DNA of 47,560 bases from Candidatus Zhuqueibacterota bacterium. Lineage in GTDB: Bacteria > BS750m-G25. This document shows, one piece after another, positions 10,213-35,781 of the stretch. Below the pieces are notes generated by a model that did no database searches, had not been told where the DNA came from, and saw only the letters and a program-made list of their open reading frames with translations. Location of the stretch: assembly GCA_016783505.1 (NCBI GenBank), contig JADHWK010000015.1:1-47560 (forward strand). Reading direction: 5' to 3'. Position numbers and translations under genes: made by a program. The first letter of the stretch is position 1. Each line of letters opens with the position of its first letter.

Positions 10213-12504
10213 ATGAAACAAAAAGGGATTTTATCCAGTATCTTGCCAATCGTCTTTGCCCTTTCCATACACGCAGCGGTAAATGATTGGCAGACGTTTA
10301 CCTCGATGAACGATATTCGGGACGTTTCCATTAACGGAAATATGTTATGGTGTGCCACCAACGGGGGCGCCTTAAAATTCAACCTGATTGATAAGACTTT
10401 TGAAAAGATCACCAATACCGAGGGACTTACATCCAATAGTGTAAATGTTATCGCTGTTGACCCTGACGGGCGCGTGTGGATTGGTCTGTCAGACGGTATA
10501 ATTAATATTTTCGATAATGCTGAAAATTTCTGGCATACGGTCAAAGTATTGGAGCAATTTCCCATATATGATTTCTATTTCTCTGGTGATTGTATTTACG
10601 TTGCTATCTCTAAAGGTGTCGGTGTGTTGAAATATTCTGAAGAATCTCGCTCCTATGAGGTTAAGGATACTTATTTAAAATTGGGAGAATTTCAAAGTGA
10701 AATCCCAGCTAATTGTATTTTAATCGATTCTGATCACATTTTGGTGGGAACTGACCAGGGAGTTGCTAAAGGTGTTCTGGATCCTTTGATTAACCTCCAG
10801 GAGCCCGGCAATTGGTCAAATTACCACATTTACAACGACCCAGAAAAAGATAAAATAAGTGATATTATTCTCTGGGATACTACTTTATTTGCCGCTACCG
10901 AAAAAGATGGTATTGCCAAACTCCAGGATAATAACTGGGTAATAAGTAACCCTTGGTTAGATGTCACGGAATTGGCTGTTGATGATGGTACGTTATATGC
11001 AGCAACAGCAGACGGAGTTTATAGGCTCACCGATCTTTCCACCGACAGTTGGACCCTGTTGGACAGCGCCCTTTCTAAGGTGTCCTCTCTCGATTTTGAT
11101 GGGGAAGGCAGCCCTTGGGTTGGCCGGATGAACCAGAAATACAAAGTAGGGGGTATTTCGGGTTGGCTTAATCAACATTGGGAAAATTTTTTCCCCAATA
11201 CCCCAGCCGGGAACAGCATTACTGATTTAGCTATTGATCTGGATGGGAATTTGTGGTGCGCAGGTGCTGATGTAATCGGTAAGGGATTCTATGGATTTGA
11301 CGGAGAGCACTGGACTAATTATTCCTTACAGAATCAAACCAGTAGATATTTCGAAGAAATATCCATCGCTGTTATGGTTGATCGTAACAATGCAAAATGG
11401 TTCGGCAGTTGGGGGCGGGGAATCTGCGTCCTGGATAGTGATAGGAGCTTGAGCTTTTTTGACTCACACGATTCTACCGGAGCCCATCTGCAGGGTGATA
11501 AGGAAGAAGATGGTACCAATCCTGATTATGTAATTGTCACTGATGTGGTAGAAGACAAAGATGGGAACATATGGATTCTCAATCGTCTGGCCATTAACGA
11601 TTCGGTGATGGTGGTGATGACTCCTGATTCCAATTGGTTTTATTTCAGGGACTCCGCTCTAAATCCCGGTTCTCCTTTTTCCCATAGCTGTGTCACCCAG
11701 CTTGTCATTGACCAATACGGCCGAAAATGGATGGGAACGTATTACGTTGTAGACGGCGGTGCTGGTGTCAGGGTCTTTGATGACAACGGAACGCTCGCTG
11801 ACAAAGGGGACGATATTTGGTTTGGGTTCAAAACCGGGGATGGGTTGGAAACAGATGATGTAAAATCCTTAGCCATTGATCTCGATGGAACCATTTGGGT
11901 GGGTACAACTGAGGGGGTAAATTATATCCATAATAGTCCAAATTGGGAAGATATTCAAGTAGTTGGTTCGCTCTGGGGTCTGATTGACAATGTAATCAAC
12001 TGCATTGCCGTTGATGCCCGCAATAATAAATGGTTCGGGACAAACAACGGGATCAGTGTGCTGAAATCGGGAGAGGTATATCCCAGCATTTATTATACTA
12101 AAGATAACAGCCCCCTTGTAGGTAACCATATCAATGCTATTACTTTTAACCACCGCACCGGGGGGGCCTGGATAGGCACTGACCAGGGGCTTTCCAGATT
12201 GCAGACTCCCTACCTTGAGCTGGGCCGAACCCTGGGTAAGGTGGATGTATTTCCCAATCCTTTCATTGTAGACGGTAGCCGGCGGATGAAGTTCGAAACA
12301 ACTACTTTGGCTGAGGGGTTCTCGGTCAAGATCCTGACACCCAACGGACTATTGGTGAGAAGACTTAACCAGGATGAAGCACTGGCGGGATGGGATGGAA
12401 AGAACGAAAGGGAGCAACTGGTGGCCAGTGGAATCTATCTGGTTTTGGTTTATACCGCAGATGGTCAATCTGCGGTGGGTAAAATAGCCGTCATTAGACC
12501 GTAG
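10213..12504 (+). CDS. Secreted Reg_prop beta-propeller protein with FlgD-like/type IX C-terminal domain
   Basis: 763 residues. Residues 1-22 are a signal peptide (KQKGILSSILPIVFALSIHA). The body consists of repeated propeller blades of the two-component-regulator propeller type, each ending near a W-[IVF]-G-[TSL]-x-x-G core: VWIGLSDG, IWVGTTEG, KWFGTNNG, AWIGTDQG. Residues ~680-763 (VDVFPNPFIVDG, SVKILTPNGLLVRRL, GWDGKNEREQLVASGIYLV) form a FlgD-Ig-like C-terminal domain used for type IX-like sorting. In similar organisms such proteins follow exopolysaccharide clusters and act as extracellular or surface scaffolds. There is no kinase or output domain, so it is not itself a signalling kinase. 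Confidence 0.85.
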   Translation: MKQKGILSSILPIVFALSIHAAVNDWQTFTSMNDIRDVSINGNMLWCATNGGALKFNLIDKTFEKITNTEGLTSNSVNVIAVDPDGRVWIGLSDGIINIFDNAENFWHTVKVLEQFPIYDFYFSGDCIYVAISKGVGVLKYSEESRSYEVKDTYLKLGEFQSEIPANCILIDSDHILVGTDQGVAKGVLDPLINLQEPGNWSNYHIYNDPEKDKISDIILWDTTLFAATEKDGIAKLQDNNWVISNPWLDVTELAVDDGTLYAATADGVYRLTDLSTDSWTLLDSALSKVSSLDFDGEGSPWVGRMNQKYKVGGISGWLNQHWENFFPNTPAGNSITDLAIDLDGNLWCAGADVIGKGFYGFDGEHWTNYSLQNQTSRYFEEISIAVMVDRNNAKWFGSWGRGICVLDSDRSLSFFDSHDSTGAHLQGDKEEDGTNPDYVIVTDVVEDKDGNIWILNRLAINDSVMVVMTPDSNWFYFRDSALNPGSPFSHSCVTQLVIDQYGRKWMGTYYVVDGGAGVRVFDDNGTLADKGDDIWFGFKTGDGLETDDVKSLAIDLDGTIWVGTTEGVNYIHNSPNWEDIQVVGSLWGLIDNVINCIAVDARNNKWFGTNNGISVLKSGEVYPSIYYTKDNSPLVGNHINAITFNHRTGGAWIGTDQGLSRLQTPYLELGRTLGKVDVFPNPFIVDGSRRMKFETTTLAEGFSVKILTPNGLLVRRLNQDEALAGWDGKNEREQLVASGIYLVLVYTADGQSAVGKIAVIRP

Positions 12505-22853: not shown

Positions 22854-22962
22854 CGAACCCAATATGCTCTCGCCGTATCTTGCCAGCCCAACTGATTTTA
22901 TGGACGGGCCATCCGCCGTAGTTTGACTAAAAAATTACAAAAATTTTATATAGTGGATGTTT

Positions 22963-24717
22963 ATGCAGAAGAGAATGTTTTTCATAGTATCTTTTATTAT
23001 CTTGTCCCCCTGGGCTGAATGGGGAATGGGTTATGCGGCCCGGGGTGTTGGGGAAGAACCACTACTTTTTTCATCCCAGGAACTGGACAAAGGTCAACAT
23101 CCCCTTGATCAAGATACGGTGAAGACCAAACGCCCCAAATTGGACGAGGAGACTATCTTCCTGAAGGTTTATGAGGAACTGGACCGAGAAGGAGAGGGGG
23201 TAAACCGGGATAGTTTATTCGAAAGTATCTATGAAGAGTTGAAGAAAAAAGAAGGCTTCGTATCCCCATCCGAGGAGGGGGATGAAGAGCCGTTGGAAAT
23301 ACCCCCCGAGCAGATTGTGGCCGCCGGTGAGCAAATAAAATGGGATGGTGACTTCGTAGTTGAGCGGAGACAGGTTGTAAGCGGCAACGTCCGGGTATCC
23401 GGCGGGGATGCCCTTATTAGGGGGATAGTGGACGGCGGCATCACCGTCTGGGCCGGGGATATTGAGATCGGCCCTGCCTCGGTGATTGAAGGAAAAGTCC
23501 ACGGGTTCGGGGGGAGGATTCTTCTGTCTCCGCAGTCCAGAATTCGTTCGCGAATCTGGACCCTGGACCTGGAAGGGTTTACAGTAACTGGAAATCCGAG
23601 GGGGGAAAAACTAAAACTTCAGCTATCCCGGGCCAGAGAACAAGTCATCAGTTACCAAACCCTAAACCGTTTTTCGTGGCGATACACCAAGGTAGAAGGA
23701 TTTTACTTTCAAATTATGAGGAAGTGGCTGTCCACCCCACCTTTAAATATAAATCTTTTGGCAGAGGTGGGTTATGGACTGGCAATGGGGGATTATCGCT
23801 ACAGATTTGGTGCCGAGTATGTGGGATTATTGAAGCAAAGATTAATCATAGGCTTTGCCCATTATCGTGCCACCCGGACTGAGGACGAATGGATGATTAC
23901 CACCGGCGAAAACTCACTGGGGGCACTTTTCCTCAAAGAAGATTATCGGGATTATTATTTGAGCAAAGGGAATGAATTATCGCTAACCTATTCATGGCCC
24001 TCTGGGCCGGTGACTCGCCTGGAATACCGAGAAGAAAATCACGAGGGTATGGAGACAAAGGCCGAGTGGGCCCTTGGGGGTTCGGATAGGGCCTTTCGAC
24101 CCAATTTCATGGATTTCCTGGTTGATTCCTGCGTCTGCAAGCAGATTTATTTCTCTCAGGGGTTTTCCTATCCCCGAAAACCCCTATGGTACCGGCCCCG
24201 CATTACCCTTTTTGTGGAAAATGAATATGCTGGAATGGGGGGGACTTTTGATTATGACCGCCTTGTCCTTGGCCTCCAGGCTCGCCTGCCATTCTTTAAG
24301 GATTTTGCCCTGACCGGGCGATTCCGGGGGGGAACGACCACTGGGGACTCCCTTCCAAACCAGAAGAGGTTTTACTTAGGTGGGCCTGGCAGTCTTCGGG
24401 GGCATGCTATAAAAGCCTTTTCGGGGGATCGAATGTTCCTGTCCAACCTTGAATTTTCCTATAATGAAACCAGGTATTTGAAGGGTTTGTTGACCTTTGT
24501 CCTTTTTCTCGACATCGGGGCGACTTGGTCGCCCGTCGATTCAGAAGACAGGAAACTGGCCAATACCTTTAGCAATCTTTATTCTGATGATATCAGTATG
24601 AACGTAGGGTTTGGACTCGGTCCCCGTCGGCTGTCCTGGCGGCTCAACATAGCCCAGGACCCAAAAGCCGATGAAATCTCACCGGTTGTTACATTCAGGT
24701 TAAAAAAGGGGTTTTAA
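22963..24717 (+). CDS. Outer-membrane beta-barrel with bactofilin-like N-terminal domain
   Basis: 584 residues from the ATG at 22963; the ATG at 22957 is also possible. A signal peptide (MFFIVSFIILSPWAEWGMG) is followed by a very acidic linker. Residues ~115-200 form a beta-helical region like bactofilins (VVSGNVRVSGGDALIRGIVD, GDIEIGPASVIEGKVHGFGG). From ~225 it is a barrel. FSWRYTKVEGFYFQ resembles the NRVEGL strand of Omp85-like proteins, and NQKRFYLGGPGSLRGH resembles the loop-6 RG motif. The C-terminal residue is Phe, as in BAM-recognised beta-signals. The paralog at 28520 shares DEW-x-I, ENSL, FLKED and GSLRG. TTGACT and TATATA lie just upstream, suggesting a very short leader. The role is unknown. 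Confidence 0.75.
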   Translation: MQKRMFFIVSFIILSPWAEWGMGYAARGVGEEPLLFSSQELDKGQHPLDQDTVKTKRPKLDEETIFLKVYEELDREGEGVNRDSLFESIYEELKKKEGFVSPSEEGDEEPLEIPPEQIVAAGEQIKWDGDFVVERRQVVSGNVRVSGGDALIRGIVDGGITVWAGDIEIGPASVIEGKVHGFGGRILLSPQSRIRSRIWTLDLEGFTVTGNPRGEKLKLQLSRAREQVISYQTLNRFSWRYTKVEGFYFQIMRKWLSTPPLNINLLAEVGYGLAMGDYRYRFGAEYVGLLKQRLIIGFAHYRATRTEDEWMITTGENSLGALFLKEDYRDYYLSKGNELSLTYSWPSGPVTRLEYREENHEGMETKAEWALGGSDRAFRPNFMDFLVDSCVCKQIYFSQGFSYPRKPLWYRPRITLFVENEYAGMGGTFDYDRLVLGLQARLPFFKDFALTGRFRGGTTTGDSLPNQKRFYLGGPGSLRGHAIKAFSGDRMFLSNLEFSYNETRYLKGLLTFVLFLDIGATWSPVDSEDRKLANTFSNLYSDDISMNVGFGLGPRRLSWRLNIAQDPKADEISPVVTFRLKKGF

Positions 24718-24741
24718 CCATAAACTATTTTTTGATCCTGG

Positions 24742-24772
24742 TGACAACCTAAGACCCCATAAATTGTCTAAT
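24742..24772 (+). promoter_or_regulatory. Candidate ECF-type promoter before the sigma-factor gene
   Basis: TGACAACC (24742-24749) and TTGTCTAAT (24764-24772) loosely resemble the AAC-containing -35 and GTCTA-type -10 boxes that many ECF sigma factors use to autoregulate. There is no second copy in the window to support it. Confidence 0.25.
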
Positions 24773-24791
24773 TCAACAAGAGGGCGACGTA

Positions 24792-25367
24792 ATGACGGAC
24801 CAGGAATATGAACTGATCCTTCAAGCCCAGGAGGGGAATCTAAGGGCTTTTGAAGAGCTAGTAAAAAAATACGAGGGTAGGGTGATGAATCTGGCCTTTT
24901 CCCTGTTAAACAATCGTCAGGATGCTGAGGATATCTACCAGGAGACCTTCATGCGGGTGTTTAAACACCTCAAGTCATTCCGCTTTGAGAGCGACTTTTA
25001 CACCTGGGTCTACCGCATCGTTGCCAATCTATGCTTTAACCTCAGGAAACAGAGAAAACGATATACCACTTACTCGCTGGATGAGGAGTACGAAGACGGC
25101 CGCGATCTGTGGAAATTGGCACAGGTCGAATCCCCTAAAACTCCTGAGGAGGAAAGTTTAGATAACGAGCTTCGCCGCCAGATTGATGAGGCCATTGACC
25201 AATTGCCATCCCAACAGCGGACGGTGTTTGTTCTAAAGCATTATCACCAGCGAAAAATCAAGGAAATAGCTGATCTGGTTGGTATTACCGAAGGCACGGT
25301 GAAGCGGTATCTTTTTCGGGCCACCAATCGGCTAAGGGGGCTGTTGGAGCCCTACGCAATCGCATAA
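24792..25367 (+). CDS. ECF-type RNA polymerase sigma factor (RpoE-like)
   Basis: 191 residues. Region 2 spans ~20-90: YEGRVMNLAFSLLNNRQDAE, DIYQETFMRVFKHLKSF, TWVYRIVANLCFNLRKQRKR. Region 4 spans ~130-185: DEAIDQLPSQQRTVFVLKHY, then the helix-turn-helix KEIADLVGITEGTVKRYLFRA. No region 1.1 or 3 is present, which defines the ECF class. The gene 29 bp downstream encodes a zinc-finger membrane anti-sigma factor, its expected partner. The following envelope genes are likely targets, but this is inferred from gene order alone. Confidence 0.95.
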   Translation: MTDQEYELILQAQEGNLRAFEELVKKYEGRVMNLAFSLLNNRQDAEDIYQETFMRVFKHLKSFRFESDFYTWVYRIVANLCFNLRKQRKRYTTYSLDEEYEDGRDLWKLAQVESPKTPEEESLDNELRRQIDEAIDQLPSQQRTVFVLKHYHQRKIKEIADLVGITEGTVKRYLFRATNRLRGLLEPYAIA

Positions 25368-25396
25368 TAAGTTTCTATTTGTTAGTGGGGATTACC

Positions 25397-26368
25397 ATGA
25401 AAGATTGTCAAAAATATCGCCGGCTTTTACCCCTGTTTTTATACGGTGAATTAACCGCGAATGAGAAGAGGGGGCTACAAAATCATCTTCAAGGATGTCT
25501 GAACTGTCAGACCGCCTTGGAAAAGGAGAGGAAATTTCAGGCAATTCTCTCCCGTCGTCCCGTTCTTCAAGCTACCGAAAAATTGCTGGCCCAATCACGG
25601 GGCCGGTTGGTGGCCCGCCTGCGGCTTAAAAGACGAATGGCATTTGCTGAAAAGGTGAGGGAGATTCTGGATAGTGCTGGGGATTGGCTTATCGGTGCCC
25701 TGTTTTTACCCCGCTTCCAGCTTGCCGGGGCGGTGGCGCTTCTACTAGTGGGCTTCGGTGTCGGTTGGGTTATCTTCACACCGGGTGAAGGGGAAAGGTT
25801 ACCCTTTACAGGACCATTGCAGCTCACCGGTTTGGATGGGGAGCACCTCTTCATCGAACAACTGTTGAGTCAACCTCCCGAAGAAGACCTGGATCTTCAC
25901 ATCAACGACCTGGGGGGGGGATTGGTCCAGGTTAATCTGGAGGCCAGGAGGAATTACGCCATCCAAGGGGAGGTAACCGACGAATCCATCCGGAGGCTGT
26001 TGAGCTATGCCCTGGTTAAGAATGAAAATCCTGGGGTAAGATTGCGGACCCTCAAAGCCCTTCAGATGCAAAAAGAGCAACAGGACGTCCGGAAAGTCCT
26101 CATTTATTCCCTCCTCAATGACAAAAACGACGGCGTCCGCCTGCGGGCCATCAAGGCTCTCAGAAACTTACCCCTTGATGGGGAACTGCAAAATGCCTTT
26201 ATCAAGGTTCTGTTGGAGGACAAAAACTCCAGCATCCGCATCCTGGCCATCGAAGCCCTGAATCAGGTTAAAACCGAGGACATCAGGCCGGTGTTCCGGG
26301 TTGCCGCCCAACAGGACGAAAACGACTACGTCAAACTGCTGGCCAGAAACGCACTGATCCAGGAATAA
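25397..26368 (+). CDS. Membrane anti-sigma factor with zf-HC2 domain and HEAT repeats
   Basis: 323 residues from the ATG at 25397, which has GTGGGG upstream; the in-frame TTG at 25379 is unlikely. The N-terminal zinc-binding anti-sigma domain has Cys4, and His30-x3-Cys34-x2-Cys37 in NHLQGCLNC. A single transmembrane helix lies at about 108-127 (QLAGAVALLLVGFGVGWVIF). The exported part begins with a beta-rich stretch. It then has about four HEAT repeats from ~200 on (NPGVRLRTLKALQM, NDGVRLRAIKALRNL, NSSIRILAIEALNQV, NDYVKLLARNALIQ). The HEAT array outside the membrane is a plausible sensor surface. It probably holds the adjacent sigma factor inactive until an envelope signal releases it. Confidence 0.88.
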   Translation: MKDCQKYRRLLPLFLYGELTANEKRGLQNHLQGCLNCQTALEKERKFQAILSRRPVLQATEKLLAQSRGRLVARLRLKRRMAFAEKVREILDSAGDWLIGALFLPRFQLAGAVALLLVGFGVGWVIFTPGEGERLPFTGPLQLTGLDGEHLFIEQLLSQPPEEDLDLHINDLGGGLVQVNLEARRNYAIQGEVTDESIRRLLSYALVKNENPGVRLRTLKALQMQKEQQDVRKVLIYSLLNDKNDGVRLRAIKALRNLPLDGELQNAFIKVLLEDKNSSIRILAIEALNQVKTEDIRPVFRVAAQQDENDYVKLLARNALIQE

Positions 26369-26392
26369 CCCTTCCAAACGATGGAGGAAAGA

Positions 26393-27649
26393 ATGACACG
26401 TTATGGTAAATTGATTGCCCTGGTCCTTATGGGCTTAATCCCCGGGCTGGGTCACCCCCAGGACACCCTATACTATGATGGGAGGTATTATGTAGGACAG
26501 GCGACCAGATCCTTCGCGGTCACCGAGGGAGGGAAGCTGGTGATGACCTCTATCGTCGCCGATATAAAGGTGGAGGCATGGTCCCAAAATCAGGTGCAAA
26601 TAATAGAGGTGAAGAGCATTGATGTCCCTACCAAAACTGAGGCCAGGACCGCCTGGCAGAAAACCGAGTCCTCCTTCCGTCAAGAGGGGAATCTCATTGA
26701 AGTTGAGGGTCGAGATTATAAAAGGAAATACATCAGGGGCTTCTATCGGGTTAAGGTTCCGGTGGTGTTCAGTTTTCACGTGGATACGGAGGGGGGGGAT
26801 ATTTCAGTGAATGGCCTTTCCGGTGAGGTGGTCTTAAATACTTCGGGGGGGGACATCGAGCTTAAGGGGCTTTCGGGGCGGGTCGAGGCCCGCACCTCCG
26901 GTGGTGACATGAATGCAGAGCAGATTAGGGGAAAACTAACCCTGAAGACATCCGGGGGTGATCTGGTTATGAAGGAATTGGAAGGAATAATCACCGCCAG
27001 GACTTCAGGGGGAGATGTGGAGTTGATCCATCTAAAGGGCGATGCTGAGCTCAAAACCTCTGGGGGGGACATTTATCTCGGGGACATAGAGGGGGAATCG
27101 GTCACTGCCCATACATCTGGGGGTGACATTGAGGTGCAGGGGGTGAAATCAAACCTAAAGGTAACCACTTTTGCTGGGGATGTTGATATTGAAAATACTG
27201 AGGGAGAGGTTATAGCTACTACTTCGGGCGGTGATGTGGAAATTATAGATGTGGTGGGGGGGGTGAAGACGAGCACTTCCGGGGGGGATATAAAATGCAA
27301 CCGCATCTCCGGATTTGTGGAAGCTAAAACCTCAGGGGGTGATATTGTGGTCAAGAAACTGCTAAATACTAACATCCAGGATCATCATCTGGATCTGGAG
27401 ACATCAGGGGGAAACATAGAACTCTATTTGCCCCCCAACATCAAAGCTGACGTAGAGGCCAAGATAACCATACGTCCATACGCCATTCGGGAATACCATA
27501 TTACCTCCGATTTTCCGTTGGAAATCGAAAAGATAAAGGAGGGAGGTTACCTTCACATCACCGGGAAGGGAAAAATCAACGGTGGGGGGCATCCGGTGAA
27601 TTTAAAGACCACCAGAGGGAATATTTATATCAAAGAATTGGAGGATTAA
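26393..27649 (+). CDS. DUF4097 beta-solenoid protein with TSGGD repeats
   Basis: 418 residues. The ATG at 26393 is preferred over 26381 because GGAGGA sits just before it. A signal peptide (YGKLIALVLMGLIPGLGHPQ) precedes a short N-terminal domain. Residues ~125-350 hold about thirteen coils of 18-20 residues, most ending in TSGGD-[IVLM]. Nine are exact, one reads TSGGN, and one is disturbed (TTFAGDVDIE). Near the C-terminus KINGGG precedes a last strand, as in the two other DUF4097 proteins here. The family forms stacked beta-sheets and is thought to be exported. No catalytic site is seen. The next gene starts three bases later, so they are coupled. Confidence 0.85.
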   Translation: MTRYGKLIALVLMGLIPGLGHPQDTLYYDGRYYVGQATRSFAVTEGGKLVMTSIVADIKVEAWSQNQVQIIEVKSIDVPTKTEARTAWQKTESSFRQEGNLIEVEGRDYKRKYIRGFYRVKVPVVFSFHVDTEGGDISVNGLSGEVVLNTSGGDIELKGLSGRVEARTSGGDMNAEQIRGKLTLKTSGGDLVMKELEGIITARTSGGDVELIHLKGDAELKTSGGDIYLGDIEGESVTAHTSGGDIEVQGVKSNLKVTTFAGDVDIENTEGEVIATTSGGDVEIIDVVGGVKTSTSGGDIKCNRISGFVEAKTSGGDIVVKKLLNTNIQDHHLDLETSGGNIELYLPPNIKADVEAKITIRPYAIREYHITSDFPLEIEKIKEGGYLHITGKGKINGGGHPVNLKTTRGNIYIKELED

Positions 27650-27652
27650 CAG

Positions 27653-28474
27653 ATGTCTATAAAGAGAATATACCAAACCCAATTCGTTATTATCCTGATC
27701 TTATCGTTATTACCCTTGAATGCCGTCAGTTTGGCCGCAGAACGCACCGAATTGGTAGGAAAAGACTATCCCTTCAATCCCGATGGGGAAATCATTCTCA
27801 GAAATACCAACGGCTCCGTATCGGTTCAGTCCTGGGATGAGGCAAGGGTCAAGATTGAAGCGCAGAAGAACGTCCGTGGATTAAGCCCCCACCGGGCTGA
27901 GGAATATTTACAGGAGGTGAAGATTGATATCGAAGGCGATGAAAACTCCTTGACAATTGATACCTACTGTCCGGGGATATCAAAACCCTGGAACTTTTTC
28001 AGGTTCCTATTTGGGGGATACCCCAGGGTAAAAGTGGAATACCAGATCTGGGTTCCCCGCGAATGTGATCTGGAGTTGAAAACGGTGAACGGAGGAATAG
28101 ATGTCTCCAGTGTTACCGGAGACCTGAGCATAAATACCACCAATGGGGGAATTGATACCCGGGATTGTCGGGGTTCCCTCCGGGCTCGAACCACCAACGG
28201 GGGAATCCGGGTCGAATTAACTGAGTTTGGGCACGATGATGCGATGGACTGTTCAACCACAAATGGGGGCATCAAGGCCTATCTCCCGGAAGACCTTCGG
28301 GCAGATGTTTACGCCCGGACTACTAACGGGTCAATAGAGACCGATTTTCCCATTGAGATTCAGGGACGCTTTACCGGAAAACGGGTAGAGGGGAAGATCA
28401 ATGGGGGTGGAGGATCGGTCGAACTCACCACCACCAATGGGAGTATAAAAATTCTAACCCTTTCCGTTCCTTAA
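27653..28474 (+). CDS. DUF4097 beta-solenoid protein with TTNGG repeats
   Basis: 273 residues. GGAGG inside the upstream gene's last codons serves as the ribosome-binding site. The signal peptide is IYQTQFVIILILSLLPLNAV. About seven coils share T-[TV]-N-G-[GS]-[IV] (NTNGSVSV, TVNGGIDV, TTNGGIDT, TTNGGIRV, TTNGGIKA, TTNGSIET, TTNGSIKI). The penultimate KINGGG motif is the same as in its two relatives. It differs from the preceding gene in having asparagine where that has serine or aspartate at the turn, and in being shorter. Function unknown; probably a periplasmic or surface solenoid. Confidence 0.85.
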   Translation: MSIKRIYQTQFVIILILSLLPLNAVSLAAERTELVGKDYPFNPDGEIILRNTNGSVSVQSWDEARVKIEAQKNVRGLSPHRAEEYLQEVKIDIEGDENSLTIDTYCPGISKPWNFFRFLFGGYPRVKVEYQIWVPRECDLELKTVNGGIDVSSVTGDLSINTTNGGIDTRDCRGSLRARTTNGGIRVELTEFGHDDAMDCSTTNGGIKAYLPEDLRADVYARTTNGSIETDFPIEIQGRFTGKRVEGKINGGGGSVELTTTNGSIKILTLSVP

Positions 28475-28519
28475 GAACTGGGTGATAATCCTCACTTATT
28501 GAATCAATCGGAGAAAAAG

Positions 28520-30034
28520 ATGAAAGCTAAGATTTCTTTTATGACTATTATTTTATTAATGGGGTTCTCATCCTGGGGTTGGACTCTGACCACAGAGAAG
28601 GGGGGAACAACCACAGCCCTCGATACCTTAATATCTCCCCCTGAGCAGGAGATTAAAATATTCGGGGAATACCGGGTTGAGAAGGGGGAAGTGGTCAACG
28701 ATAACGTGAGCGTAATTGGCGGGGATGTTTACATCGCCGGGACAACAAAAGGCAATATTTCGGTCTACGGCGGGGATGTAGAGATCGCCTCCATCGCCCG
28801 GGTGGAGGGAAATATCCGATGCCTTGGTGGAAAAATTAATCGAGCTGAAGAGGCTGAGGTCATGGGCCGATTGGTGGAAGCCAATCTGGGGGGGATTACT
28901 ATAAAGCCCAGGAAAAAAGAGGGAACCAAAATCAAAAAGCCAAAGATAAAATTCCCTGAAGAGAAATATGGACTGGAAATCGGGGATCTGAGCACCATTC
29001 GATTTAACCGGGTAGAGGGTCTTTACCTGCAAGGTGGGGATAAGTGGAAATCACCCCCGCCTGTGAACGTCCTCTTTTACGGCTATGGCGGATATGGTTT
29101 TTCCATGGAAGAATGGCGGTATTTGCTTGGGTTGGAGAGGTATTGGTTTCAGAGAAGCCAGTTAAAAGCCGGAATCAGCGTTTACCGGGAGACAGCCACC
29201 CCTGATGAATGGATAATACCCGCTGACGAGAATAGCCTGGCTGCCTTTTTCTTGAAAGAGGACTTTCACGATTTCTACCGGCGGGAGGGGGTCTCGGTCT
29301 CCCTGTCCCAGCGGCTGTTTGGAAGGCTAAAGCTGGGGGCTCAATATCGTCAGGACGAACATGATTCTTTGAGGAAGAATACCAACTGGAGCTTGTTCGG
29401 GGGTCATAAGGTTTTCCGGGAAAATTTTTCCACCGTTGGTGACTCCATCACCGAAGGAACCATGAAAAGCCTATTTTTCTTAGGAAGGCTTGGGATAGCT
29501 GGTGAAGGTAATTGGAGGCTGTTGATATATGGCGAGTATGAATTTGCTAAAAAGAGTATGGGCGGGGACTTTAATTTTGATCGGATCTTGCTTGATCTTC
29601 GTCTCCATCAGCCAGTCTCCGTCGGTGAGATGATCAGCCTGCGGTTGCGAGCCGGGTCGGCCAGCGGCATCTTACCCAATCAGAAGGCTTTTTACTTGGG
29701 ATACATCGGAAGCCTGCGGGGGTATGAATACAAAGAATTCTGGGGAGACCGCATGGTGCTGGGCAACCTGGAATACCGCATCGGGATGGATTTTACCCCC
29801 GGGGACATTAACCTCATTCTGTTTGGGGATTCCGGCTTGGCCTGGAATGCAGGGCCGGATGAACGTAATGATTGGACCAAATCCTTTGACCGTTTGAAGT
29901 GGAACCGCCTGAAGTCGGACTTGGGAATTGCTGTTTGTGATGAAGATGATGAACATAGGTTGAATATCGCCAAGAGGCTCGACCGAGGAGAAGACGCCTG
30001 GGTAATTTCCTTTCGGATTAACCGTATGTTCTAA
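28520..30034 (+). CDS. Outer-membrane beta-barrel with bactofilin-like N-terminal domain, paralog of the gene at 22963
   Basis: 504 residues from the ATG at 28520, which has GGAG seven bases upstream; the in-frame TTG at 28499 is not favoured. Signal peptide: ISFMTIILLMGFSSWGWT. Residues ~45-130 are bactofilin-like (VEKGEVVNDNVSVIGGDVYI, GNISVYGGDVEIASIARVEG, NIRCLGGKI). FNRVEGLYLQGG then opens the barrel. It shares DEW-x-I, ENSLAAFFLKED, LPNQKAFYLG and GSLRGYEYKEFWGDRM with its paralog, and ends in Phe. It lacks the long acidic linker of the first copy. Both paralogs lie in the same module, one on each side of the sigma/anti-sigma pair. Confidence 0.78.
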   Translation: MKAKISFMTIILLMGFSSWGWTLTTEKGGTTTALDTLISPPEQEIKIFGEYRVEKGEVVNDNVSVIGGDVYIAGTTKGNISVYGGDVEIASIARVEGNIRCLGGKINRAEEAEVMGRLVEANLGGITIKPRKKEGTKIKKPKIKFPEEKYGLEIGDLSTIRFNRVEGLYLQGGDKWKSPPPVNVLFYGYGGYGFSMEEWRYLLGLERYWFQRSQLKAGISVYRETATPDEWIIPADENSLAAFFLKEDFHDFYRREGVSVSLSQRLFGRLKLGAQYRQDEHDSLRKNTNWSLFGGHKVFRENFSTVGDSITEGTMKSLFFLGRLGIAGEGNWRLLIYGEYEFAKKSMGGDFNFDRILLDLRLHQPVSVGEMISLRLRAGSASGILPNQKAFYLGYIGSLRGYEYKEFWGDRMVLGNLEYRIGMDFTPGDINLILFGDSGLAWNAGPDERNDWTKSFDRLKWNRLKSDLGIAVCDEDDEHRLNIAKRLDRGEDAWVISFRINRMF

Positions 30035-30035
30035 C

Positions 30036-30134
30036 ACAGAGGACGAAGAGTTTATCTCAGAGAACCCAGAGGAAAGATTGGATGGGTTCTGCGTATTCTG
30101 TCGGCTTTCTGAGTTTGACTACAGAGGACGAAGA
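30036..30134. repeat. Direct repeat ACAGAGGACGAAGA, two copies 85 bases apart
   Basis: Exact copies lie at 30036-30049 and 30121-30134, in the 133-base gap between the second barrel gene and the toast-rack gene. The intervening bases contain no gene. They may be remains of a small duplication. Confidence 0.6.
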
Positions 30135-30167
30135 AATCCACAGAAAACCCTGAAATTCGAGGTAAAG

Positions 30168-31028
30168 ATGAAAAAATTATTGATAGGATTAACCATAGTC
30201 GCCCTGGGGATGGGCCTGACCTTAGCCAAGCTTCCTCCGGAAGAGTTAAGGAAGACCATCAAGAAGACCACCGAGAAATTCCTGGACGCCAGCATTGAAT
30301 TCGCCTTGGGGGAATTGACGGTGGAAAGCGGCAGTGCCCGCAACGTCTTTGAAGCGAATTTAAGATATAATCCAGATGAAATGCAGCCCGAGATCGAATA
30401 TGAAATCCGGGAAGACGAGGGAAGGTTAAAGATTCGTTTGAAGTCGAAGGAGGATTATTCCCATAAGACCTGGAAAAGTACATATCAGGAGAACCGTTGG
30501 GAGCTGCTATTATCCGATGATCTGCCCATCTCGCTGAAAATTGATATGGGTCTGGGAAAAGGCAACCTGGACCTCACTGATCTGAGGATTGTCGAACTGC
30601 AACTGTCCACCGGAATGAGCGAGGTGACCCTGGAGTTTAATGAACCCAACCAAGAAGAAATCTCCCGCCTAAAGATTGTGTCAGGGCTGGGAAAGTTCCG
30701 GGCCAAAAATCTCATCAATGCAAATTTCAGGAGACTGAAGTTCGAGAACGGACTGGGGGCTTCCACCCTGGATTTTCGGGGTGAGTTAGAGGGTCAATTT
30801 AAGGCAGAGGTTTCCGTAGGCTTAGGTTCGCTGACCATCCTGGTTCCCAAGCGCTTCGGGGTTCGAATTGAGGCGGAAAGGTCCTTTCTGTCCACTCTCA
30901 ACCTGGATAATTTTGTCCAAAAAGGTGAGGATATTTACCATTCAAGAAACTATGATAAGACCGAAAGCCGGATTGAACTGGATGTGAACATCGGATTGGG
31001 CAGTGTGAACGTGGAGTGGGTTGATTAA
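30168..31028 (+). CDS. Toast-rack/LiaF-like secreted or membrane-associated protein
   Basis: 286 residues from the ATG at 30168, with GAGG upstream; the open frame extends to 30078 but lacks a good start there. A hydrophobic N-terminus (MKKLLIGLTIVALGMGLTLA) is a signal peptide. After ~30 residues repeated glycine-centred strands appear (MGLGKGNLDL, TGMSEVTLEF, SGLGKFRAKN, NGLGASTLDF, VGLGSLTILV, IGLGSVNVEW), each ~20 residues apart. This matches the toast-rack/LiaF-like beta-fold related to DUF4097. A 3' fragment of a second copy lies at 32174-32299, past the next gene. Function unknown; LiaF relatives sense cell-envelope stress. Confidence 0.75.
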   Translation: MKKLLIGLTIVALGMGLTLAKLPPEELRKTIKKTTEKFLDASIEFALGELTVESGSARNVFEANLRYNPDEMQPEIEYEIREDEGRLKIRLKSKEDYSHKTWKSTYQENRWELLLSDDLPISLKIDMGLGKGNLDLTDLRIVELQLSTGMSEVTLEFNEPNQEEISRLKIVSGLGKFRAKNLINANFRRLKFENGLGASTLDFRGELEGQFKAEVSVGLGSLTILVPKRFGVRIEAERSFLSTLNLDNFVQKGEDIYHSRNYDKTESRIELDVNIGLGSVNVEWVD

Positions 31029-31044
31029 ACTATCTCAACCCCGT

Positions 31045-31069
31045 TGCTTCAAGGTTGCACCTTGAAGCA
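31045..31069. repeat. Inverted repeat TGCTTCAAGGT-TGC-ACCTTGAAGCA
   Basis: Eleven-base perfect arms around TGC. It is followed only eight bases later by a second palindrome with the same TTCAAGGT core. The two lie between the toast-rack and DUF4097 genes and may influence read-through or message stability. Confidence 0.75.
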
Positions 31070-31076
31070 TTTCGAA

Positions 31077-31103
31077 TTCTTTCAAGGTTTAACCTTGAAA
31101 GAA
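31077..31103. repeat. Perfect 27-bp palindrome with TTCAAGGTT arms
   Basis: Thirteen-base arms (TTCTTTCAAGGTT and AACCTTGAAAGAA) meet at a single central T. It shares the core TTCAAGGT/ACCTTGAA with the neighbouring 31045-31069 element and partly with 16974-16998. Confidence 0.75.
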
Positions 31104-31138
31104 CAGGTTCTCATCTTAAAGGAAGAAAGGAGGAGATC

Positions 31139-32146
31139 ATGAAATCCGTATCCCGCAACTATCAATGGGCAAGCATAGCTATTGCTGCCCTCCTGCTTAT
31201 CGCCTCACCGAGCGCCCGTGGTGAAATCGAAGACCGTATCAAAAAGTCATTTGAGGTTGGTTCCGGTGGGCAGCTTACCCTAACGACTGATCTTGGATTA
31301 ATCGAGGTGCAGGCGGTAGACGGCAATACCCTCGAAGTGGAGGTAATCCGGAAGGTTTATGCACGAAATCGCAAAAAGGCTGATGAAATACTGGAAGATT
31401 TTGAAATTGAATTCAGTCAGAGCGGCAAAGATGTGGATATCCGTGCAGAGTATAAAGGGGAAAAACGTCGTTTCTGGGATTTTGATCAAGTTCGGCTGCG
31501 AGTTCGTTATCTGATTTCCGTGCCCCGAGAATATAACGTTGATCTGAAAACAGCAGGCGGAAGTATTTCGGTGGATGATCTTGAGGGCGAGGTGCGTAGT
31601 AAGACTTCCGGCGGTAGTTTGCATTTCGGCCGCATTCAGGGGCCAGTCTGGGGGAAGACCTCGGGCGGTAGTATAGAGCTTGATGGCTGTAGGGGTAAGG
31701 CAGAAGTGAAAACCTCAGGCGGTAGCATCAGTATCGGCGAGGTGGACGGTGACGTCCTCGCTCACACCTCCGGGGGTTCGATTCGCATCAAAAGGGCCAA
31801 GGGGAGTGTTGATGCCAAGACTTCCGGGGGCAGCATCACGGTGGAAGAGGTGATGGGCTCGATTAATGCGACCACCTCGGGTGGCACGGTGAAGGCTCAC
31901 ATCTCTCGCCAGCCGCAGGGCGACTGTCGTCTGGCGACCTCCGGTGGAAGTGTTGTCGTTTATATGACGGAAGATATCGCAGTAGACGTGGACGCAAAAA
32001 CCAGTGGTGGTCGTGTGGTAACTGAATTACCCGTAACTGTACAGGGTGAACTGAGCAAGACCTCCCTGCAAGCAAAGATTAATGGCGGCGGACCGGCGCT
32101 GGTTTTACGCACATCCGGGGGTAATATTCACCTGCGCAAAATGTGA
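31139..32146 (+). CDS. DUF4097 beta-solenoid protein with TSGGS repeats
   Basis: 335 residues from the ATG at 31139, which follows a very strong AAAGGAGGAG; the open frame back to 31055 runs through palindromes and is not coding. Signal peptide: WASIAIAALLLIASPSARG. About ten coils share TSGGS or a close variant (TAGGS, TSGGT, TSGGR, TSGGN), spaced 18-20 residues, with a KINGGG motif before the last strand. The repeat turn carries serine, where the gene at 26393 has aspartate and 27653 has TTNGG. It is flanked by the toast-rack gene and by a decayed copy of that gene's 3' end, so it was probably inserted. Likely exported; function unknown. Confidence 0.85.
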   Translation: MKSVSRNYQWASIAIAALLLIASPSARGEIEDRIKKSFEVGSGGQLTLTTDLGLIEVQAVDGNTLEVEVIRKVYARNRKKADEILEDFEIEFSQSGKDVDIRAEYKGEKRRFWDFDQVRLRVRYLISVPREYNVDLKTAGGSISVDDLEGEVRSKTSGGSLHFGRIQGPVWGKTSGGSIELDGCRGKAEVKTSGGSISIGEVDGDVLAHTSGGSIRIKRAKGSVDAKTSGGSITVEEVMGSINATTSGGTVKAHISRQPQGDCRLATSGGSVVVYMTEDIAVDVDAKTSGGRVVTELPVTVQGELSKTSLQAKINGGGPALVLRTSGGNIHLRKM

Positions 32147-32173
32147 CAATGTTCCTGATAGCGATGCTGAAGC

Positions 32174-32299
32174 ATAGATGATTTTATAAGTAGGGATGAG
32201 GACGTATACTGCTCACTTAACTATGATAAATCCGAAAGCCGGATCAAACTGAGGCTGAACACCTGACCGGGCAGTGTGAACGTGAAGTGGGTTGATTAA
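32174..32299 (+). pseudogene. 3'-end remnant of a toast-rack/LiaF-like gene
   Basis: Aligned without gaps, this stretch matches the end of the gene at 30168-31028. NYDKSESRIKL and PGSVNVKWVD* mirror NYDKTESRIEL and LGSVNVEWVD*. An in-frame TGA at about 32258 interrupts the frame, and no N-terminal part remains. By hand count about 69 of the last 82 bases agree. The shared sequence ends just after the stop codon. It overlaps the untranslated leader of the next gene. Confidence 0.8.
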
Positions 32300-32360
32300 A
32301 CCCGTTTTTTTTTGGAAATTTAACTTCGAAAAGCATAAGTGTAAAAAAGAAAAACTAATA

Positions 32361-34988
32361 ATGAAAAAAAGATTTATACCTTTGTTTATTTTTATATTTG
32401 CGAATCTTTGGGCGAATCAAACCCTGGCAGAAAAAAAGGTCTATGTGGCAACGAGGGTTAATCCTTATCCGCCGATTATAGACGGTCATCTGGATGACCC
32501 CGCGTGGGCAGCTGTTGACTGGAAAGGCGAATTTATTCAGAGAGAGCCTTATGAGGGAAAAGAGCCTTCTCAGGAAACGGCCTTTAAAATATTATACGAT
32601 GACAAAAATGTCTATGTCGGGATTCGAGCGTATGACACCGAACCGGCGAAAATAGACCAGCGGATGTCCAGACGGGACGATTTGGATGGAGATATTGTTG
32701 GTATTCAATTCGACAGCTATTTCGACCATCGGACGGCATTTACATTTATCGTCAATACCGGCGGTGTCAAATGCGACGGCGTCTTTACCAACGATGGAGA
32801 AAATGAAGACTTTTCGCCGGATCCAGTATGGTATGTGAAGACAGCGACCGACGATCAGGGCTGGACAGCGGAGATGCAGATCCCTCTGAGTCAATTACGC
32901 TTTGGAAACCAGAAGGATCAAATCTGGGGGCTGCAGGTGGCAAGATATCTGTTTCGCAAAGAGGAACTCTCCCTCTGGCAGTTCATTGCCAAAGACGCTC
33001 CGGGCTGGGTGCATCTGTTCGGTGAACTGCATGGGTTAAGAGGAATAAAAACACCGCGGCGTATCGAGTTACTTCCTTATTCAGTGGGAAGATTACAAAC
33101 TTTTCAGAAAGAGGAAGATAATCCCTTTGCCACCGGTCGTCTAAATAGTCTAGCAGGCGGGTTGGATGGGAAAATCGGTGTCACCAGCGACTTGACCCTG
33201 GACTTCACCATCAACCCCGATTTTGGTCAGGTGGAAGCCGACCCTTCTGAGGTGAATCTTACCACTTTCGAAACTTTTTTTGAAGAGAAAAGACCGTTTT
33301 TTATTGAAGGGAAAAATATCCTGGATTTCCGGTTGCTGATGGGGGATAGCCCGTTCTCCAATGACATGTTGTTCTATTCCCGCCGCATTGGGCGTTTCCC
33401 TCAATATGAACCTGATGTGGATGATGATGAATATGTGAAGATGCCAACAAACACCTCAATTATAAGCGCTCTAAAACTAACCGGTAAAACCCATAATTGT
33501 CTGTCTATAGGCATAATGGAAGCGGTTACTGCCGAAGAAAAGGCAGAAATAGATTTTCAAAGACAGCGTCACCGAGAGGTGGTGGAACCGATGACCAATT
33601 ATTTTCTGGGACGATTACAAAAAGATTATAATAAAGGAAGTACCATCTTAGGTGGCATGTTCACAGTCACTAATCGGAATATCTCTGATCCTCAGCTTAA
33701 TTTTTTAAACCGCTCTGCTTACACCGGTGGGATTGATTTTAGCCATCGGTGGAAAGATAGGACTTATTTACTGGACATTAAAACGGCCTTTAGTCATGTT
33801 CGCGGCGACAAAGAGGCAATACTGGAAACACAAACTGCATCATCCCGGTATTTCCAGCGCCCGGATGCAAATTATGTTACCTTGGACTCCAGCCGCATTC
33901 ATCTTTCTGGACATGGGGGCACATTTGTGTTTGGAAAGATTAGTCATGGTCACTGGCAATATATTTTATGTAGTACATGGCGTTCTCCGGGGCTGGAATT
34001 GAACGATCTGGGTTATCTGCGAATGGCTGATATAATCATGCAATTTGTTTGGGTCGGTTACCGTATCTGGAATCCCATTAGTGTCTTCCGTAGAATTAAC
34101 ATAAACTTCAACCAATGGAATGGTTGGAATTTCGGGCGTGAAGGGTTATTCGCTGGCGGGAATATCAATGTTGATGCACAATTTCTTAATTACTGGGGAT
34201 TTGGAACCGGGATCAACCGAGAGGGGCCATCCCTTTCTACCAATGCGCAGCGTGGCGGGCCCGCAATGAGATTCCCCGGAGGATGGAATAACTGGTTTAA
34301 TATTTATTCTGATGAGCGTAAATCTTTACAACTCAATTTAATGGGGTCAAATTCTTGGAATAACGATGGGATTTCACGGTCCCAACAGTTCAGACCAGGA
34401 ATTACATGGCGTCCCAGCAATGCGCTACAGCTATCGTTCAATCCCTCTTACAGTATTAACAGGGATAATCTGCAATACGTTGATACAATTGAAAAAGAGG
34501 ACTATAATCGCTACATTTTTGCCCGATTAGATCAAAAAACATTGGGAATCGTTTTCCGTTTAAATTATAGCCTGACACCTGATCTCTCCATTCAGTATTA
34601 TGGACAACCTTTCGTCTCTTCCGGTGAATATTCCCAATTTAAGAAAATTACCCGTCCTAGGGCGGATGGTTATGATGATCGTTTTCATATATTTACTGAC
34701 AGCGAAATTAGTCCATATGAAGAAAGCTATGGAATTGATGAGGATCAGGACGGATTTGACGATTATTACATAGATAAGCCGGATTTTAATTTCCGGGAAT
34801 TTCGTTCAAATTTGGTGATCCGCTGGGAATACACCCCTGGTTCCACCATATTTTTTGTCTGGTCTCAAGGACGGACCGTGGAAGAGTCCATCGGGGATTT
34901 CTCCTTTAGAAATGATATACAGGACTTATTTGATATCTATCCCCATAACGTTTTCTTGATAAAGCTAAACCATTGGTTTTCGTTATAA
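32361..34988 (+). CDS. Outer-membrane DUF5916 protein with CBM9-like N-terminal domain
   Basis: 875 residues from the ATG at 32361; the open frame extends to 32292 but its extra leader is not signal-like. Signal peptide: FIPLFIFIFANLWANQTLA. Residues ~30-220 are a carbohydrate-binding family 9-like domain (PPIIDGHLDDPAWAAVDW, DDKNVYVGIRAYD, FQFDSY-like VGIQFDSYFDHRT, WTAEMQIPLSQLRFG). The rest is the DUF5916 region predicted to form a barrel (DFTINPDFGQVEADPSEVNL, TTFETFFEEKRPFFIEG, YSRRIGRFP). The final residues (VFLIKLNHWFSL) look like an outer-membrane strand. It is a common Bacteroidota/FCB envelope protein without established function. A substrate-binding role is inferred from the CBM9-like domain. 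Confidence 0.85.
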   Translation: MKKRFIPLFIFIFANLWANQTLAEKKVYVATRVNPYPPIIDGHLDDPAWAAVDWKGEFIQREPYEGKEPSQETAFKILYDDKNVYVGIRAYDTEPAKIDQRMSRRDDLDGDIVGIQFDSYFDHRTAFTFIVNTGGVKCDGVFTNDGENEDFSPDPVWYVKTATDDQGWTAEMQIPLSQLRFGNQKDQIWGLQVARYLFRKEELSLWQFIAKDAPGWVHLFGELHGLRGIKTPRRIELLPYSVGRLQTFQKEEDNPFATGRLNSLAGGLDGKIGVTSDLTLDFTINPDFGQVEADPSEVNLTTFETFFEEKRPFFIEGKNILDFRLLMGDSPFSNDMLFYSRRIGRFPQYEPDVDDDEYVKMPTNTSIISALKLTGKTHNCLSIGIMEAVTAEEKAEIDFQRQRHREVVEPMTNYFLGRLQKDYNKGSTILGGMFTVTNRNISDPQLNFLNRSAYTGGIDFSHRWKDRTYLLDIKTAFSHVRGDKEAILETQTASSRYFQRPDANYVTLDSSRIHLSGHGGTFVFGKISHGHWQYILCSTWRSPGLELNDLGYLRMADIIMQFVWVGYRIWNPISVFRRININFNQWNGWNFGREGLFAGGNINVDAQFLNYWGFGTGINREGPSLSTNAQRGGPAMRFPGGWNNWFNIYSDERKSLQLNLMGSNSWNNDGISRSQQFRPGITWRPSNALQLSFNPSYSINRDNLQYVDTIEKEDYNRYIFARLDQKTLGIVFRLNYSLTPDLSIQYYGQPFVSSGEYSQFKKITRPRADGYDDRFHIFTDSEISPYEESYGIDEDQDGFDDYYIDKPDFNFREFRSNLVIRWEYTPGSTIFFVWSQGRTVEESIGDFSFRNDIQDLFDIYPHNVFLIKLNHWFSL

Positions 34989-35056
34989 GCTGTCAAACAA
35001 CACGATTAGCCTAAATTTTGCTTTTTTCATTTAGCAGAAAAAAAATCTTTCAAATA

Positions 35057-35087
35057 AAAGCTGAAGTTATAACTTCGGCTTTTTTTA
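35057..35087 (+). terminator. Rho-independent terminator after the DUF5916 gene
   Basis: AAGCTGAAGTT-AT-AACTTCGGCTT, an 11-bp stem with one G-T pair, is followed directly by a T-run (TTTTT). It lies about 70 bases after the stop and closes the envelope module. Confidence 0.85.
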
Positions 35088-35115: not shown

Positions 35116-35144
35116 TTGACAATTGGGAAAAAAATTGTTATAAT
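35116..35144 (+). promoter_or_regulatory. Consensus sigma-70 promoter
   Basis: TTGACA, exactly 17 bases, TATAAT: a perfect match to the housekeeping consensus. It lies about 68 bases before the ATG of the small secreted protein. Confidence 0.85.
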
Positions 35145-35211: not shown

Positions 35212-35781
35212 ATGAAGCTTTCGTACAGTTTTTTTATTTCAACTTTTTTACTTCTGGCAACAATGGGTATGACACCGAAATGGTCATTAGGTCAGGAGGA
35301 TATTCGCTACTATCGAGGATGGGATTACGTGAACAGAAAGCCCCAATTTGAGATCAGAAGGGGGAAGCCTACCGGGGTTTTTTATCGGATAATATTTGAC
35401 GATAAGGGGAATATGGTTCAATGGGAGCGGAAGGACCAATGGATCGGACTTAATGCCAAACAAAATTATCGTTACGATGAATATGGAAATCTGATCCGAA
35501 CGATCTGGTATCGGCAGGACGGATCCCCCATCTGGGTGGAATTCTACACTCCCGAAGGCCTGCGGGTTCAGAAAGACTGGTATCACAGCGATGGTTCTCT
35601 GCTTACGTTCTGGAAATACCATTACGATAGCAAAAACCGGGAAATAAAACGGGAAATTTACGACTCGGACTCCCAACTATCAGCGTATTATCAGTTTGAA
35701 TATAATGGAGCCTCAAGAAAAAAGACGATAAAAAAATACAATCGCAGAGGGATACTATTGCAGGTGCAAACCGAGCCTTAG
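35212..35781 (+). CDS. Small secreted protein with YD/MORN-like repeats
   Basis: 189 residues. A signal peptide (KLSYSFFISTFLLLATMGM) precedes a body of ~20-residue units built around tyrosine/aspartate strands: FYRIIFDDKGNMVQWE, YRYDEYGNLIRTIWY, EFYTPEGLRVQKDWY, YHYDSKNREIKREIYD, FEYNGASRKKTIKKY. Such units occur in YD (RHS-like) and MORN-like proteins such as YwqK. No toxin or enzymatic domain follows. The strong promoter implies steady expression. Its role is unknown; it may bind an extracellular polymer or a partner protein. Confidence 0.7.
   Translation: MKLSYSFFISTFLLLATMGMTPKWSLGQEDIRYYRGWDYVNRKPQFEIRRGKPTGVFYRIIFDDKGNMVQWERKDQWIGLNAKQNYRYDEYGNLIRTIWYRQDGSPIWVEFYTPEGLRVQKDWYHSDGSLLTFWKYHYDSKNREIKREIYDSDSQLSAYYQFEYNGASRKKTIKKYNRRGILLQVQTEP

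Follow-up and report, generated by a model that had tools for sequence, protein, structure and literature searches.

Does the run of nine genes between positions 22963 and 34988 of this contig, from a Candidatus Zhuqueibacterota bacterium, form one envelope-sensing or assembly system, as a preliminary description proposed, or does it hold a smaller unit with its own control? The window analyzed here is one entire contig of 47,560 nucleotides, from a genome of 2.5 Mb that is 60% complete; the genomes compared with it include none closely related to it. The open reading frame list and Pfam recover all nine genes, each on the + strand and with the domains described. Our preferred reading, to which we give a probability of roughly 70%, is that the locus is an envelope-stress operon, autoregulated by its own ECF sigma factor, that contains toastrack proteins and a bactofilin-Omp85 barrel. 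This reading draws on sequence and prediction: the operon arrangement, a conserved promoter, a regulon in relatives, domain folds and synteny.

The ECF sigma factor (24792–25367) consists of sigma-2 and sigma-4 regions only (Pfam sigma-70 r2, 1e-17; r4_2, 1.9e-17). It is followed by an anti-sigma factor (25379–26368), assigned by Pfam, hydrophobicity and motif, in which a zf-HC2 domain is joined to HEAT_2 repeats at the C terminus (residues ∼198–326). One hydrophobic transmembrane helix, at residues ∼104–126, lies between the sigma-binding and sensor parts. The zinc domain is thus predicted to be cytoplasmic and the HEAT repeats periplasmic. The ZAS motif Hx3Cx2C (HxxxCxxC) is present as HLQGCLNC at residue 36; it was not detected in the anti-sigma factors of relatives, two of which (L064 and L066) have HEAT repeats confirmed by Pfam.

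About 20 nt upstream of the sigma start codon, on the + strand, lies the sequence TGACAAC-N17-GTCTAA (24742–24771), the top score among 95,060 window positions. The same 13 specified bases, with the same spacing, stand upstream of the sigma gene in G080, a genome of another phylum, and the perfect sequence occurs once in each of these two genomes against an expectation of ∼0.05 each. All 10 informative loci of the G080 phylum carry TGACAAC-N17/18-GTCNA before sigma; in the G193 lineage no such promoter was seen upstream of sigma. An AAC-type −35 element combined with a GTC-type −10 element is the form of ECF promoters such as those of E. coli RpoE. By the form and position of its elements, the site in the window qualifies as a predicted ECF-type, autoregulated promoter. 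The window scan found no outstanding ECF-like site before barrel A, the LiaF-like toastrack, the third DUF4097 gene or the DUF5916 gene, and scans of the window for sigma-70 and terminator consensus sequences performed overall no better than on shuffled sequence. At 35116–35144, 5′ of a DUF2963-like gene at 35212, the sequence matches the sigma-70 promoter consensus perfectly (TTGACA-17-TATAAT with TG). Elsewhere in the contig, the regions 585–2312 and 10213–12504 carry type IX secretion features, namely a beta-helix protein with a Por_Secre_tail and a propeller resembling PorZ; sorting domains of this type are what one would expect of a member of the FCB group.

Downstream of the anti-sigma gene are two DUF4097 toastrack solenoids, predicted to be exported. 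Solenoid 1 (26381–27649; DUF4097, 1.2e-21) is nearest to the DUF4097 protein of L066, which occupies the equivalent operon position; solenoid 2 (27653–28474; 4.9e-12) precedes barrel B (28499–30034; likely start codon at 28520). A LiaF-like toastrack with a signal peptide (30168–31028; Toast_rack_N, 8.8e-15; LiaF-like_C, 9.1e-6) and a third exported DUF4097 solenoid (31139–32146; 1.3e-9) follow the barrel. The signal peptides ascribed to the solenoids are borne out, in that the DUF4097 and toastrack proteins have signal-like N termini and no later transmembrane segment. All DUF4097 matches found in the 60% complete genome lie inside this cluster.

The core operon, as predicted, is 24742–30034, a conserved and autoregulated unit of sigma, HEAT-repeat anti-sigma, two DUF4097 proteins and barrel B. 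It probably extends to 32146 through the LiaF-like toastrack and the third DUF4097 gene, because the adjacency of such genes to barrels is conserved elsewhere, although gaps of 134 nt (30034–30168) and 110 nt (31028–31139) could hide internal promoters that would leave these last two toastracks outside the sigma operon. The first of these gaps contains ACAGAGGACGAAGA repeated twice (30034–30140), and the second contains two adjacent short inverted repeats, TTCAAGGT..ACCTTGAA and CTTTCAAGGT..ACCTTGAAAG.

At either edge the unit is narrower than had been proposed. Barrel A (22957–24717) lies 5′ of the sigma promoter and outside it. At the other end, a + strand hairpin with a T-run (32284–32308; −8.4 kcal/mol, z −1.2 by shuffling) may mark the operon end, though weakly on statistics alone, and the CBM9-DUF5916 gene (32364–34988; DUF5916, 9e-76) starts ∼218 nt past its predecessor. 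The conserved unit therefore spans at most 24742–32146 and not 22963–34988. The terminator that the preliminary description placed at 35057 does correspond to a real-looking intrinsic terminator 3′ of the DUF5916 gene (35056–35083, + strand; −13.9 kcal/mol, z −5.7, strong), but as the single close of a nine-gene series it has to share that role with the weaker hairpin that sits before DUF5916. A DUF5916 gene was found near none of the homologous barrels in 105 loci, and on this synteny we rejected it as a member of the module. It is probably a separate unit and possibly a co-regulated neighbor, as the DUF5916 gene of one relative has an ECF promoter. The idea of one nine-gene system is thus not supported: barrel A and DUF5916 have no such promoter in the window, and the latter is cut off by a terminator-like hairpin as well as by its absence from homologous neighborhoods.

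Both barrels belong, by profile and model, to the Omp85 family (barrel A, 3.9e-11; barrel B, 4.1e-11) and are 33% identical. Like the Omp85/TpsB superfamily, they have a 16-strand-type C-terminal barrel, an L6 RG motif and a C-terminal aromatic residue: barrel A carries SLRGH at residue 480 and ends in F, the other version of the motif in the window is SLRGY, and 23 of 43 homologs match a strict L6 pattern. The AlphaFold2 model of barrel B, built from 43 homologs, has a mean pLDDT of 86.1 and comprises a confident N-terminal beta-solenoid (residues 50–128), a disordered linker (130–159) and then the barrel. Residues 163–511 match Sam50, TamA and BamA at Z 20–23, and BamA by Foldseek at 6.9e-14. 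At least four further Omp85 matches lie on other contigs of the genome, so that barrels A and B are additional members of the family.

What distinguishes these proteins from BamA, TamA and TpsB is the N-terminal domain, a bactofilin fold in place of POTRA. Pfam finds no POTRA match in either barrel, and in barrel B the bactofilin-fold domain and the disordered linker fill that space. The domain spans residues 48–131 of barrel B (28640–28891, by model and by structure and profile comparison) and 84 residues of barrel A (23323–23574, by ungapped alignment with the other N-terminal domains); its length is 84 residues in 42 of 43 homologs from many phyla, which align without gaps. Modeled alone, the barrel B domain reaches pLDDT 95, and its top structural matches are the three solved bactofilin entries, 6rib (Z 10.6; rmsd 1.9 over 74 aligned residues), 6ria (10.3) and 2n3d (9.1). 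By Foldseek alone, no PDB match to the domain was significant; it was a second alignment program that put bactofilins first. The top two PDB sequence matches are likewise bactofilins (E 0.0017 and 0.015), Pfam Bactofilin is matched by 35 of 42 homolog domains (best, 1.8e-7), and true bactofilins, compared profile against profile, are matched at E 3.5e-6 with a probability of 87.6. The window barrels score 16–25 bits (24.5 for the barrel B domain) against the PF04519 gathering score of 27.9 bits, and we therefore class the domain as a bactofilin-like fold rather than a bactofilin. The bactofilin-like N termini first described for both barrels are thus below cut-off on single proteins and confirmed by profile and structure comparison. 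With an ice-binding beta-helix in the next row at Z 8.6, close below the bactofilins, the similarity of fold is firm and common descent from bactofilins is likely but unproven. A signal-like hydrophobic segment at the N terminus argues for export of barrel B, unlike cytoplasmic bactofilins. This architecture recurs across FCB phyla. Several loci of KSB1 and its relatives (L076, L078, L083, L084, L088, L093 and L096) encode barrels of 716–804 aa with apparently at least two copies of the bactofilin-like domain before the barrel, and in L054 (5222–5593), L061 (1396–1773) and L107 a stand-alone bactofilin gene lies directly 5′ of a bactofilin-Omp85 barrel.

An Omp85 fold adjoining signal-peptide beta-solenoids recalls TpsB and TpsA, and barrel A has a weak Pfam match to ShlB (3.6e-6). 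The locus could on these grounds be a secretion unit, in which the barrel is a two-partner-secretion-like exporter, the toastracks are its surface-displayed substrates and the sigma pair merely controls them. We consider this unlikely: TpsB needs POTRA domains to bind its substrate, Pfam detects neither POTRA nor a TPS-type secretion domain in any of the nine proteins, and the N-terminal bactofilin domain is without counterpart in TpsB.

The envelope-stress operon reading draws further on comparison between lineages. A scan of genome contigs with the single barrel B protein found nothing; a profile from a tighter barrel alignment yielded 79 loci in named genomes, mostly of KSB1, Calditrichota, Zixibacteria, Ignavibacteria/Bacteroidota, Eisenbacteria and Krumholzibacteriota. 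In 35 of these 79 FCB loci the barrel adjoins a toastrack or DUF4097 gene. Such genes stand at +1 in 33% and at +2 in 27% of loci, and upstream in ∼0–1% (Fisher ∼1e-26, a value that overstates the case since loci of the same phylum are not independent, although the position effect is plain). In five loci of Calditrichota and related lineages (L055, L056, L057, L091 and L143) an exported protein of ∼580–594 aa is encoded between barrel and DUF4097; it has internal repeats in L091 and, in the two that were scanned, no Pfam family above cut-off.

A sigma/anti-sigma pair lies beside the barrel in three lineages: the window, the G193/G050 group, where the order is sigma, anti-sigma, barrel, toastrack, and the G080 phylum. 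In the last, 11 of 13 genomes have the barrel, and every locus with enough DNA (10/10) has the order sigma, HEAT anti-sigma, DUF4097, barrel, several with a second DUF4097 gene after the barrel. The neighborhood proposed from the window alone is accordingly found in another phylum, and co-occurrence in related genomes reaches to the third lineage and to the barrel-toastrack loci that have no sigma gene. Chance clustering of unrelated envelope genes, an account that would suit barrel A and DUF5916, which are indeed not conserved members, is contradicted for the core by an order, adjacency and promoter conserved between phyla, and we hold it to be extremely improbable.

None of the 79 named barrel loci has a complete adjacent sigma/anti-sigma pair. 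Judged by this distribution, the pair appears as an add-on to the barrel-toastrack combination in three lineages, and because most barrel-toastrack relatives have no such pair adjacent, barrel and toastrack function does not need it. The barrel and toastracks might then be an FCB module for outer-membrane assembly or lipid handling, which a few lineages independently supplemented with the sigma pair, stress control being secondary. Many Bacteroidota barrels do have housekeeping genes as neighbors, PdxJ and YbbR among them; in L101, L112 and L119–L122 (Bacteroidota/Ignavibacteria) the barrel is flanked by PdxJ and a YbbR-like gene, and toastracks are absent. We regard a housekeeping role of this kind as possible, though on the improbable side. 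It is compatible with stress control in the window, and the regulon that the promoter defines in one phylum is clearly envelope-oriented.

In 11 genomes of the G080 phylum the promoter pattern occurs 52 times; 39 occurrences are intergenic and 32 have a gene start within 150 nt, mostly 20–50 nt away. When the pattern is scrambled at equal composition, the same genomes give 27 matches, none of them between genes (0/27; Fisher 1.6e-11, or 9e-9 once the sigma operons are taken out). Recurrent targets, identified by Pfam on one representative per target type, are the sigma operon, PspC (three genomes), S49-peptidase-type (SppA-like) proteins (three) and an ABC ATPase (exporter) gene with a 1,100–1,200-aa partner encoded directly downstream (four genomes). 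At least five DUF5128 propeller lipoproteins, two DUF2884-like proteins (27.4 bits against a cut-off of 30.6) and the single DUF5916 protein complete the set. In L248, L249 and L255, the predicted operon of a putatively ECF-controlled ABC ATPase gene continues with a gene for a membrane protein of 1,136–1,184 aa. By content, the motif targets of this phylum make up a predicted envelope-stress regulon, comparable to the SigW and PSP/Lia regulons. In the window's own genome, a search for TGACAAC-N16-18-GTC found no intergenic match before a gene other than the sigma site, so the wider regulon is supported for the G080 phylum only. The envelope-stress control first suggested for the locus nonetheless gains support from the shared ECF promoter and from this envelope-gene-rich regulon in relatives.

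These observations are consistent with a model in which the membrane-spanning anti-sigma factor would use its cytoplasmic zinc domain to keep sigma at the inner membrane, with the HEAT repeats exposed to the periplasm. Envelope damage would free sigma, probably through altered binding between the HEAT repeats and the exported DUF4097/LiaF-like beta-solenoids; in the simplest form of the model, the HEAT repeats would read the state of a toastrack/barrel layer and release sigma when that layer is disturbed. Freed sigma would then transcribe its own operon from TGACAAC-N17-GTCTAA, raising the amounts of sigma and anti-sigma and supplying periplasmic toastracks together with an Omp85-fold barrel that has a periplasmic bactofilin-fold solenoid. 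The most likely task of the barrel is to assemble the toastrack layer at the outer membrane or to anchor it there. The evidence supports the regulatory logic of this model; the stimulus, the contact between HEAT repeats and toastracks, the activity of the barrel and the physical role of barrel and toastracks, including the proposed part of the solenoids as ligands or scaffolds, are what we infer. Extended to the FCB group, it suggests, as a speculative and rather doubtful proposal, that bactofilin-type polymerizing solenoids, each fused to an Omp85-fold barrel, lie on the periplasmic side of the outer membrane and, together with exported toastracks, form a cytoskeleton-like scaffold anchored to that membrane, which some lineages build and repair under the control of a dedicated ECF sigma/HEAT anti-sigma switch.

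The system resembles SigW- and RpoE-type switches in its ECF sigma beside a one-TM anti-sigma factor, its autoregulated AAC/GTC-type promoter and, in relatives, its SppA-like and exporter targets; it differs in the HEAT-repeat sensor and in an operon that encodes toastracks and an Omp85 barrel. With the Lia/PSP systems (LiaF, LiaG, LiaX; PMC11237479) it shares the coupling of Toastrack (DUF4097/DUF2154) proteins to a transcription switch for envelope stress, and PspC and DUF2884 among the regulon targets of its relatives. The switch, however, is the ECF sigma/HEAT anti-sigma pair, with no LiaRS two-component system detected in the operon by Pfam, and the toastracks are predicted to be exported without a membrane anchor, with an Omp85 barrel as partner. 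The Toastrack survey argues for an intracellular Toastrack location and notes that some Toastrack genes occur in operonic linkage with a sigma factor (Ravi et al., 2024; PMC11237479); the words "Omp85" and "bactofilin" are absent from it. Relative to the bactofilins BacA (2n3d) and Thermus bactofilin (6ria/6rib), which provide the best structural and profile matches to its beta-solenoid, the domain in the window is short (84 aa), predicted to be exported and fused to an outer-membrane barrel. "Bactofilin" is likewise absent from the Omp85 survey, which describes 10 Omp85/TpsB architectures (Heinz and Lithgow, 2014; PMC4104836), and a literature search found no paper pairing "Omp85" with "bactofilin", which is weak evidence of absence, as most subscription papers lay outside the search. 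On this weak literature basis, the locus would be an ECF-controlled envelope-stress system of known type with a new Omp85 domain architecture.

The locus joins Toastrack/LiaF envelope-stress proteins, an ECF sigma switch and an Omp85 barrel, which are usually treated apart. Its bactofilin-Omp85 layout falls outside the described Omp85 layouts that we checked and suggests that here a bactofilin fold operates in the periplasm. PspC, the S49 peptidase, the ABC exporter, DUF2884, DUF5916 and DUF5128 form a gene set with a predicted shared function, and the conserved promoter and regulon offer, for uncultured phyla, a testable counterpart of the SigW, Lia and PSP responses. The recurrence of the gene set and its control site in an unrelated bacterial group points to a mode of envelope sensing and repair that we have not found described.
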